A stretch of 56,516 bases of DNA from Haloplanus sp. (GTDB taxonomy: Archaea > Halobacteriota > Halobacteria > Halobacteriales > Haloferacaceae). Position 1 is the stretch's first letter; each line of letters begins with the position of its first letter. A program made the position numbers and the translations under genes. The stretch is from positions 1 through 56,516 of the forward strand of contig NZ_JAQCNJ010000016.1 in assembly GCF_028275055.1 (NCBI RefSeq), written 5' to 3'. Below, one piece after another: positions 43,260 to 45,680 of this stretch. Below the pieces are notes generated by a model that saw nothing but the letters and a program-made list of their open reading frames with translations, was not told the DNA's origin and did not search any database.

Positions 43260-43535
43260 TCAGCCCTCTGCCTGCCTTCGCTCCCAATCTCGCCGCGCCG
43301 CGAGTTCGCGCCGGCCACGTCTGGTCACCGAGTACGCGTTCGTTCGGCGGTCCTGGGTGCCCTTATCGATCAGCCCCTTCGAGACCAGTGTGTCGAGATT
43401 CGGATACAACCGCCCGTTGTGTATCTCGTCGTCGTAGTAGTCCGACAGCTCTTCTTTGATCCCGAGGCCGTGCGGATCGTCGAGCCCCGCGACGACGTAC
43501 AGTAGGTCGCGCTGGAATCCCGTCAGATCGTACAT
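43260..43535 (-). CDS. PadR-family transcriptional regulator
   Basis: 91 residues. Winged helix typical of PadR: LTGFQRDLLYVVAGLDDPHG, GLGIKEELSDYYDDEIHNGRLYPNLDTLVSKGLIDKG, then the wing NAYSVTRRGRREL. The GRLYPNLDTL segment is the PadR signature. It is short, lacking the C-terminal dimerisation helix domain of longer members, as is common in haloarchaea. TATA-like minus-strand CATATTTATTTTTG (43561-43574) is 26-39 bases upstream. The candidate small RNA upstream is on the same strand. Confidence 0.9.
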   Translation of the reverse strand: MYDLTGFQRDLLYVVAGLDDPHGLGIKEELSDYYDDEIHNGRLYPNLDTLVSKGLIDKGTQDRRTNAYSVTRRGRRELAARRDWERRQAEG

Positions 43536-43671
43536 CTCCCGGTCGAACCGGATATTCCTACAAAAATAAATATGATGAATACGGCACTACTACCTGCCGC
43601 TGTGTTCGGGTACGGCGCTCCAGTGTGTCGGTTCCGACGGGCGGCACGGCCGCTCACGAACACGATCTATC

Positions 43672-43762
43672 AGGAAAAGGAAAGCAAGCCACGCGAAACC
43701 CGCGTGGCGTTGCCGCCCTGATTGGTCCCCGCTGACGCTTCGGCCCTCCAGACGAAGCGTCA
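43672..43762 (-). ncRNA. Candidate structured small RNA with promoter and U-rich end
   Basis: Transcribed on the minus strand. A TATA box (43781-43792) is 20-30 bases ahead of 43762, where the first hairpin begins: a perfect 10-bp stem pairing 43733-43742 with 43753-43762, 10-base loop. A second hairpin pairs 43684-43695 with 43701-43713 (12 bp with one bulged base at 43709, 5-base loop). Directly after it the RNA would read UUUCCUUUUCC, a U-rich archaeal terminator. Predicted length about 90 bases. An alternative is a leaderless 57-residue peptide starting at the ATG at 43763, but it is Arg-rich, not acidic, and hairpins cover much of it. Family unknown. Confidence 0.5.
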
Positions 43763-43780
43763 TTGATTGTTCACTGGTGG

Positions 43781-43792
43781 CAAAATATAAAA
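43781..43792 (-). promoter_or_regulatory. TATA box of the candidate small RNA
   Basis: Minus-strand TTTTATATTTTG, the best TATA match in this gap, centred about 25 bases before the base of the first hairpin. Confidence 0.55.
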
Positions 43793-43981
43793 CTACCGCC
43801 TGTCGGTCGGACGTGTTCCACCCCAACACCCTCGTGATTCGGTTCCGTCTCGGTTGGCTGTGATCGGAGGACGACGTATCGTTCTCCGCCCGTCGATCCG
43901 TCACACATCCCCGTCGATCGTCGTTCGGAGCCGTACGTCCGGGAGCGCCGTGTTTTTATCCGCCGCGAGCGAACGACGGAC

Positions 43982-44683
43982 ATGAAAGTTCGCGGCCGGC
44001 GGGAGTGTCAGGCGTGTGGCTGCCGGTGGTCGTACTACGAAACCGGGAGCGTGGCGTGCCCAGACTGTGAGAGCCTCCGGAGTGTCGGTGTTGACGACCG
44101 TACCCTCCACACAGACGCGCCCGCGACCATCGATCTGACACCGTATCGCACCGCCGAACACGAGGGGTCGTTGTCGGATGCCGTCGACGACTGCAAACAA
44201 CACCTCCGGGCGTACGTCCGGCGTCGTGGCTTTATCCACGGCGGCGAACTCCAACCGCTCGATGACACGTTTCTCGCGGCGACCGAACTCCTCCAGGTGG
44301 TCGACGCGTACCACCGGGAGCGCGACCCGAGCGACGCCGACCGACACTACCTGTTGCTCCTACTCCGGGGGGCCGACGACGGGGAGCGACCGCCACCCGA
44401 CGCCGTCCCTAACACGCTAGCCCCGGCCCGCGGGCTGGCGTACGCGAACGCCGTCGCCGACTACCGCCGTGGCCTTCTCGACTGGCTGGACGAACACCCC
44501 GACGAGGCCGCCCGAGGACCCCTCGGGTCGATCCACGAACGCGCAAAGCGGGTGCGTGCCCTCAACGGCGACGTGTCGCCGGCCGACGCCGAGTCGCTGG
44601 TTCGGGCGATCCGTGAGGTCGGACGGTATCTGACCGACGGCGACGAATCGTCGCTGGCGGCCGCCGAGTCGCTGGTTCGGTGA
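43982..44683 (+). CDS. Haloarchaeal zinc-ribbon protein (possibly DUF7117)
   Basis: 233 residues. N-terminal zinc ribbon: RECQACGCRWSYYETGSVACPDCESL (two CxxC pairs, about 8-33), reminiscent of TFIIB-type ribbons. The remainder is helical and acidic with no membrane part (TFLAATELLQVVDAYHRERD, LAYANAVADYRRGLLDWLDE). The C-terminus contains the peptide AESLVR twice, encoded by an identical 18-base stretch (44588-44605, 44663-44680) 25 codons apart. A role in nucleic acid contact is possible from the ribbon; function unknown. TATA-like TGTTTTTATC is at 43951-43960. Convergent with folD (4 bases between stops). Confidence 0.75.
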   Translation: MKVRGRRECQACGCRWSYYETGSVACPDCESLRSVGVDDRTLHTDAPATIDLTPYRTAEHEGSLSDAVDDCKQHLRAYVRRRGFIHGGELQPLDDTFLAATELLQVVDAYHRERDPSDADRHYLLLLLRGADDGERPPPDAVPNTLAPARGLAYANAVADYRRGLLDWLDEHPDEAARGPLGSIHERAKRVRALNGDVSPADAESLVRAIREVGRYLTDGDESSLAAAESLVR

Positions 44684-44687
44684 CCGA

Positions 44688-45575
44688 CTACGGCAGGTCG
44701 ACGGACACGTCGGTCTGCCGGCCCGTCGCCATAACCGTGTTGTACAGGAGCATCGCGCGGGTCATCGGACCGACGCCACCCGGCACCGGCGTGATGGCGC
44801 CGGCCACCTCCTTTGCGCTCTCAAAGTCCACGTCGCCGACGAGCGTCGATTCGCCGTCGCGGTCGACCCGGTTGACGCCCACGTCGATAACGACGGCCCC
44901 CTCGGTGAGCATCGACCCGTCGACGAGTTCGGGCACGCCGGCGGCGGCGATCACCACGTCCGCCCGCCGGGTCTTCTCGGCCAGGTCGTCCGTCCGGGAG
45001 TGACAGAGTGTCACGGTCGCGTTGCCGTAGTCTGCCTTCTGGACGAGGAGGTTCGCAAGGGGCTTGCCGACGATGTTCGACCGCCCGACCACGGCCACGT
45101 CCGCACCTTCGGTTTCCACGTCGGCGTCTTCGAGAAGTTTGAGAACGCCGTGGGGTGTACACGGCTTGAACACGGGGTCGCCGGCGACCAAGCGGCCGAC
45201 GTTCTCAGGGTGGAAGCCGTCGACGTCCTTCGCGGGGTCGATGGCCCGGATCACGTCACGGTTCGAGACGTGGTCGGGGACGGGCATCTGGACGAGAATG
45301 CCGTTGACGTTCGGGTCGGCGTTCAGATCCTCGACGGTCCCGAACAGTTTCTCGGCGGGTGCGTCGGGATCGAGTTCCACGTCCAGTGCCTCGATACCGA
45401 CCTCCTCACAATCCTCCTGTTTCATCGAGACGTACGTCTCGCTTGCGGGGTCGTCGCTCATCAGAACGGTCGCGAGCGTCGGCGTGACGCCATCGTCCTC
45501 GAGTGTCGCGATGGCGTCGCCGAGCCCGTCGCGAACGTCGCTGGCGACGTCGTTGCCGTCGATGATACGAGTCAT
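44688..45575 (-). CDS. folD: Bifunctional methylenetetrahydrofolate dehydrogenase / methenyl-THF cyclohydrolase
   Basis: 295 residues. YVSMKQEDCEEVGI carries the catalytic Lys of the YxxxK motif; GILVQMPVPDHV, the NADP-site VVGRSNIVGKPLANLL and the terminal ITPVPGGVGPMTRAML are all standard FolD. It interconverts methylene-, methenyl- and formyl-tetrahydrofolate. ATG at 45575 gives the usual MTRIIDGN start; a methionine ten codons upstream is less likely. glyA, which makes its substrate methylene-THF, is two genes away. Confidence 0.95.
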   Translation of the reverse strand: MTRIIDGNDVASDVRDGLGDAIATLEDDGVTPTLATVLMSDDPASETYVSMKQEDCEEVGIEALDVELDPDAPAEKLFGTVEDLNADPNVNGILVQMPVPDHVSNRDVIRAIDPAKDVDGFHPENVGRLVAGDPVFKPCTPHGVLKLLEDADVETEGADVAVVGRSNIVGKPLANLLVQKADYGNATVTLCHSRTDDLAEKTRRADVVIAAAGVPELVDGSMLTEGAVVIDVGVNRVDRDGESTLVGDVDFESAKEVAGAITPVPGGVGPMTRAMLLYNTVMATGRQTDVSVDLP

Positions 45576-45680
45576 GTCCTGACAGGCGTGACCGACCGTC
45601 TTCAACGCTCCGCTTGGCGCAGTATCGACGTTCGAGAGTCATCGGGAGCGCTTTTGACGCGTCGTGTCGAACGACTACCC

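Follow-up and report, generated by a model that had tools for sequence, protein, structure and literature searches.

The minus strand of a Haloplanus sp. contig carries what is almost certainly a genuine non-coding RNA gene, whose product of ca. 90 nucleotides would consist of a near-invariant 5′ module, a 3′ hairpin and a U-rich tail. The analysed stretch of DNA, referred to as the window, comprises 56,516 nucleotides (NCBI RefSeq assembly GCF_028275055.1, contig NZ_JAQCNJ010000016.1, positions 1 to 56,516). Judged from sequence comparisons, the predicted RNA is a feature of the class Halobacteria which is missing from some genomes of two side families. The explanation that we prefer, with a confidence somewhat above even, is that of an independent, trans-acting non-coding RNA, whose 5′ module docks on a partner present throughout the class, more likely a protein or an RNP, and whose 3′ hairpin acts as terminator and stabiliser.

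The gene, termed copy A, occupies positions 43674..43763 of the minus strand according to its sequence, its fold and a covariance model; its ends are approximate, as they are inferred from the distance to the TATA box and from the U-rich run. The predicted promoter (43782..43800, minus strand), recognised in the sequence and in logos of the collected loci, consists of a BRE-like element GGCGGTAG followed by the TATA-like box TTTTATATTTT (43792-43782, read from the sequence), of which the TTTATA begins 30 nt 5′ of the hairpin G at position 43761. Fold and alignment define a perfect 5′ hairpin of 10 bp (hairpin 1; 43733..43762, minus strand) within the near-invariant module, built up by the arms 43762-43753 and 43742-43733 and the loop UCUGGAGGGC (43752-43743). 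It is followed by the near-invariant linker AGCGGGGACC (43724..43733, minus strand; folds and alignment), whose first A closes hairpin 1 and which is unpaired or weakly paired in single-sequence folds that vary among themselves; in the fold of the window sequence, it is partly paired with the U-rich end. The complete linker between the two hairpins of the window reads GCGGGGACCAAU and is G-rich. The 3′ hairpin (hairpin 2; 43684..43713, minus strand), supported by fold and covariation, contains 12 bp and one bulged C (43709), and the adjacent U-rich tail UUUCCUUUUC (43674..43683, minus strand), found at a matching position in relatives, is a probable terminator. TATA box, hairpins and U-rich run all lie where the initial annotation had placed them, and the comparison across relatives described below supports its proposal that a structured small RNA, equipped with a promoter and a U-rich end, is encoded here. 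Folding of the stretch 43766-43666 yields −48.9 kcal/mol (z = −4.05), a value equalled by none of 200 shuffled sequences, and the covariance model R1 scores 77 bits on the window at G000:C55:43676-43762. A further suggestion, namely an alternative fold with a GNRA loop formed by a GGCG-GCAA-CGCC element, holds only in part: the element is present in the window, but the alternative fold is not conserved, since the letters after GGCGGCAA mostly differ in the relatives compared.

Conservation was analysed on 100 fetched loci, all read in one orientation. All 73 loci compared, each representing one genus, carry the 26-nt stretch TGGAGGGCCGAAGCGTCAGCGGGGAC without a single change; they are composed of 54 main copies outside the window's family and 19 padR-linked copies within it. 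Extended by the next base to 27 nt, the core is still identical in 71 of these 73 loci and in 93 of all 100. The near-invariant 5′ module thereby delineated is the hairpin with the loop UGGAGGGC plus the linker AGCGGGGACC. Among three genomes (G073, G008 and G152), the 16S rRNAs are 88.6-90.3% and the 23S rRNAs 84.9-86.4% identical to each other; for the RNA itself, a 56-base stretch including both ends is 90-95% identical. Collecting loci by similarity biases such figures toward conservation, yet just 4 of the 391 class genomes are without a match.

The two hairpins evolve differently. For hairpin 2, 40 of the 54 loci outside the family were aligned; L056, L061, L066, L071, L074, L075, L077, L079, L080, L083, L089, L097, L098 and L109 were omitted by eye as near-duplicates or oddly cut sequences. 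In this alignment two-sided changes are found in 12 of 15 pairs, amounting to 60 cells compared to 19.5 ± 5.1 in shuffles, and 86.0% of the cells are paired compared to 39-53% when the pairing is slid. Single-sequence folds of the 100 loci give a median of 17 pairs for this hairpin. The letters of hairpin 2 thus differ between genera while its predicted pairing is maintained. A covariance comparison of loci 5′ of padR had been recommended in the initial annotation, and at these loci the stems are indeed kept, with compensatory changes in hairpin 2, and the reading frame is not, owing to 1-nt indels in loop and linker. Hairpin 1 is nearly constant, 8 of its 10 pairs never varying among orthologues, and its pairing therefore rests on energy and on two extra copies: L140 has C-G in place of U-A at one pair and U-A in place of C-G at another, and in L139 a single pair has gone on both sides while all others persist.

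All 12 genomes of the window's genus contain two matches each. With a 101-base query at E ≤ 0.1, matches were obtained in every one of 148 family genomes, covering all 28 genera, and in 387 of 391 class genomes, covering 83 of 86 genera, both sets being samples from larger groups; as the loci were collected by similarity to the window sequence, strongly diverged copies would be missed. The 5′ half alone recovered 77 of 80 genus representatives, a set selected from 91 candidates by omission of 11. In the four class genomes without a match (G159; G285, G336 and G412), which belong to two families and of which three are 88-92% complete, the covariance model reaches just 13-19 bits. The best two weak model matches in RNA-less genomes, L166 and L167, looked like chance on inspection; two further matches in such genomes, L168 and L169, reach 13 bits. 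Within a phylum sample of 196 genomes the model matches 33, of which 32 fall into the window's order; the remaining one is a weak match (24.8 bits, E 0.0072) at G531:C86:23102-23185 in a genome outside the class. Carriers known by name are Haloferax profundi and H. mucosum as well as plasmids of Haloarcula sp. GH36 and Halorubrum lacusprofundi. The initial annotation could assign the RNA to no class, and in agreement with this no family of Rfam 15 (4227 families) matches the window at gathering score; a 251-base stretch searched at E ≤ 10 gave three matches, the best with 14.1 bits against a cut-off of 35, and the sole match in the loci of six relatives is a tRNA in L137, separate from the RNA. 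The end of a mobile element was also considered and rejected, as the stretch has no match in a phage collection at E 0.01 and no exact 26-mer in viral contigs; such an origin is disfavoured by the fixed synteny.

Of the 100 loci, 95 possess a TATA-like box, which in 91 begins at −30. This constant distance, together with the matches in nearly all class genomes examined, places the observation beyond chance, and we infer that the RNA is transcribed from its own promoter. An NTG triplet coincides with the hairpin start in 92 of 100 loci (GTG 66, ATG 13, TTG 9, CTG 4), which accounts for the leaderless frame of 57 residues noted earlier; this frame does exist in the window (43590..43763, minus strand) and begins at the RNA start.

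Two alternative interpretations concern the nature of the transcript itself. A leaderless small-protein gene, corresponding to the 57-residue frame in the window, would be compatible with the ATG, GTG or TTG found directly at the hairpin start in 88 of 100 loci. The distance between start and loop, however, shifts its phase between loci (phase 2 in 67, phase 0 in 31 and phase 1 in 2 of 100), the frame lengths scatter, with 79 of 100 frames stopping after 15 to 108 residues and 21 lacking a stop within 120 codons, hairpin 2 evolves by paired changes and indels, and a Pfam search with the 57-residue frame gave no match at E ≤ 0.001. As the frame is not conserved among the 100 loci, we judge it a non-gene and regard a peptide as exceedingly improbable. 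The second interpretation, a cis-acting leader or attenuator, is suggested by the position of padR (PF03551, Pfam 53.6 bits; 43260..43535, minus strand) 3′ of the RNA, an arrangement recurring on the same strand downstream in 47 of the 54 loci outside the window's family. In these 47 loci, however, ca. 196-825 nt separate the RNA start from padR, and the padR upstream regions carry a TATA box of their own, as visible in a logo of 64 loci. Moreover, padR follows on the same strand in only 19 of the 44 family loci and not in the other 25 (B and extra copies), both plasmid copies are without a same-strand padR downstream, and 25 of 104 loci have an Amphi-Trp gene homologue downstream on the opposite strand. 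The distance, the separate TATA box of padR and the copies without padR make a padR leader very improbable, and it was discarded.

The remaining surroundings of the RNA are partly syntenic. In the window, the divergent neighbour encodes a DUF7117 protein (43982..44683, plus strand; Pfam 334 bits) and is followed by the syntenic folD (PF02882 and PF00763, assigned by Pfam; 44688..45605, minus strand). Upstream of the RNA, 45 of 104 loci carry a DUF7117 homologue and 23 of 104 carry folD within the fetched stretch. The logos of the RNA promoter and of the 64 padR upstream regions share no operator beyond BRE and TATA box. Of 13 RNA-carrying genomes tested, 12 possess a padR that is 75% or more identical to the query, the exception being G154 with 52%; the query stems from G153, itself one of the 13, and seven of the 13 were picked because their RNA locus lacks padR. 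The best padR in the four class genomes without the RNA reaches only 45-51% identity. This co-occurrence is confounded by ancestry, as the four RNA-less genomes come from two side families, and would fit a functional pair but also simple descent. For a small transcription factor, the kind of PadR encoded next to the RNA shows good conservation (best hits of 75-91% against the G153 query in 11 of the 12 other RNA-carrying genomes), and most genomes contain several related padR copies.

The window's own genome harbours a second gene, copy B (L002, G000:C82:24980-25032), which is 98% identical over 53 nt. Neither this copy nor the class-wide occurrence had been noticed in the initial annotation. 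In the window's genus, copies A and B have the 5′ module in common and diverge in hairpin 2, which sets a working module apart from the terminator. At least two copies at E < 1e-5 were detected in 22 of 23 family genomes among the representatives (G022 has one) and in only 2 of 54 matching genomes of other families (G249 and G171). The B copies of the family adjoin genes for TrkA, Lrp/AsnC-domain and DUF5813 proteins in 10-11 loci, and others adjoin a luciferase-like gene (named by eye) in 9 loci. One family genome, G032, contains four copies (L137, L138, L139 and L140), and in L137 a tRNA gene is situated ca. 200 nt past the RNA copy. The extra copies L111, L139, L140 and L197 (pHLAC01) are adjacent to a divergent gene for a protein of cluster c27, for which no Pfam family scores above cut-off and which was found by tblastn on 69 haloarchaeal plasmid records. 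A pairing of the RNA with the c27 protein was rejected, since none of the 10 plasmid loci opened among these 69 records contains the RNA; the sole model match there, L208 with 14.5 bits, lies inside a transposase gene and was taken as chance. A copy with 59.5 bits is present at L198:3006-3089 on a 414-kb plasmid of Haloarcula sp. GH36. The missing RNA feature in the plasmid annotation is uninformative, because the plasmid gene table lists no RNA genes. The genome G073 is probably a Haloferax, given that its copy A carries a 25-mer matched only in two Haloferax records. Its copy B (L113:2524-2620) is oriented toward the 3′ end of a convergent chemoreceptor gene (L113:2783-4996; MCPsignal).

According to the preferred mechanism of an independent trans-acting RNA, transcription would start 0-3 nt 5′ of the 5′ hairpin and terminate in the U-rich run, and the 3′ hairpin would serve both as terminator and for protection. 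The 5′ module would be the working part, and both stem strands, the loop and the linker might be fixed because this module docks on a partner common to haloarchaea. This partner would more likely be a protein or an RNP, as expected for a housekeeping or global regulatory RNA, than a single mRNA. PadR may control the RNA or be co-controlled with it, which is a guess. Action on many mRNA targets would account for the near invariance just as well, as would short contacts with rRNA, which are compatible with the chance levels found. Complementarity of the module to such RNAs was analysed. The linker, the loop and the whole module were each compared with three 16S and three 23S rRNAs (18 tests), and the complements on the correct strand stayed within the shuffle range in 17 of them. 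The exception is a 9-nt complement of the loop in one 23S rRNA, a length attained by 4 of 200 shuffles, at a site absent from the other two. In the partner tests, including those on mRNAs given below, no RNA of long complementarity emerged; this renders a protein or RNP partner the likelier reading and leaves multi-target antisense action via short seeds as its main rival.

In the antisense scenario, the linker AGCGGGGACC and the loop UGGAGGG would pair with C-rich stretches of several mRNAs, aided by Lsm bound to the U-rich tail. The layout of hairpin, G-rich linker, terminator-like hairpin and U-rich tail agrees with this role, and Lsm-bound sRNAs have been reported for H. volcanii (PMC3432209); for the present RNA the sole pointer to a putative Lsm binding is the U-rich tail. 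The 11-mer TGGTCCCCGCT, the complement of the linker, however, occurs outside the RNA genes in just 5 of 10 genomes, at nine places, no two of which share a protein at E 1e-10 when perfect 11-nt matches are considered in these 10 genomes. At the padR start, linker and loop pair no better than shuffles (64 loci), and a seed by itself needs no invariant stem. We consider antisense regulation possible, with a probability clearly below even. Alternatively, the RNA might bind to the ribosome by pairing of its loop with the CCUCC end of 16S rRNA or with a CCCUCCA stretch of 23S rRNA. None of the 73 loci departs from the loop sequence UGGAGGG, and the full 7-nt complement of this loop, CCCUCCA, occupies the same place in three 23S rRNAs (L161, L162 and L163; about 2534-2543), which we take to be near the peptidyl-transferase centre. 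In the two 23S rRNAs in which no longer match exists, however, 81 and 90 of 200 shuffles attain these 7 nt; the site is a lead that does not exceed chance. With the 16S end the loop can form 5 bp (−9.8 kcal/mol), but 59 of 300 shuffled loops pair equally well, on account of which a Shine-Dalgarno mimic was rejected. Ribosome-associated sRNAs do exist in H. volcanii (PMC12482152); in view of the rRNA tests, whose one exceptional site is not shared between the 23S rRNAs, we nevertheless rate direct ribosome binding through the loop as unlikely. A more far-reaching version of the protein or RNP reading, offered tentatively and with less than even confidence, would describe the RNA as a housekeeping RNA of the class Halobacteria, acting in an RNP with a translation or transcription partner found in all haloarchaea; padR would be its dedicated regulator, and in the window's family the RNA would have been split into two genes with the same working module and different terminators.

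The kind of molecule, a small non-coding RNA, is already known; new are the family, the degree of conservation and the twin-gene design. Trans-acting sRNAs of bacteria that bind Hfq are composed of a 5′ hairpin, a linker, a terminator hairpin and a U-rich tail. The present RNA has this layout in common with them; unlike them, its stem strands, loop and linker are fixed class-wide, and a second gene shares the 5′ module only. The box C/D and H/ACA guide RNAs are small archaeal RNAs as well, many of them conserved across clades, and the consensus of box C/D RNAs is RUGAUGA plus CUGA. Among 100 sequences trimmed to the RNA, RUGAUGA occurs in none and CUGA in four, which differs from a box C/D sRNA. 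A box H/ACA sRNA would have a hairpin with an internal guide pocket and, 3′ of it, an ANA box. The 10 bp of hairpin 1, in contrast, form an uninterrupted stem that leaves no room for such a pocket, and ACA is found within 25 nt 3′ of hairpin 1 in 6 of 100 sequences; the box definitions follow in part PMC2584109. From the guide RNAs the RNA is also distinguished by the lack of an Rfam match. The haloarchaeal RNA families sot0042 and sot2652 (Rfam RF02656 and RF02657) overlap with insertion sequences and arise by processing of longer transcripts (PMC8303175), whereas the present RNA possesses a predicted promoter of its own, a conserved chromosomal place and, in the window, no Rfam match.

Several sRNAs of H. 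volcanii are likewise small and intergenic, namely H225.2R, hts10, htsf_359, STRG.2577.4, HVO_2908s and H3.2. According to PMC3956466, 22 of 27 H. volcanii sRNAs occur in no other species, in contrast to the class-wide occurrence of the present RNA; H225.2R, hts10 and htsf_359 are reported there in 19, 18 and 12 other haloarchaeal genomes, respectively, and deletion of H225.2R is pleiotropic in H. volcanii. STRG.2577.4 is described in PMC5892119 as an intergenic RNA of 111 nt and the highest-expressed sRNA, above any mRNA. The same study lists an antisense RNA opposite the transducer gene htr36 among the highest-expressed antisense RNAs of H. volcanii, and the position of the G073 copy B at a chemoreceptor gene is compatible with this being the same locus. 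Relatives of HVO_2908s and H3.2 are present in vesicles of two genera, with close ones in Halobacterium, as stated in PMC10927574. The RNA may be one of the anonymous H. volcanii sRNAs; a text search of a collection of papers with six stretches of core letters retrieved no match.

The RNA is found in nearly every examined genome of the class, keeps 26 identical bases across 73 genera and is absent from Rfam 15; constancy of such a degree is often a sign that an RNA is linked to core machinery. With the core, both copies and the synteny defined, annotation pipelines could name the RNA by means of a covariance model. If the housekeeping reading were true, haloarchaea would possess an RNA whose core is held more strictly than ribosomal RNA as a whole.
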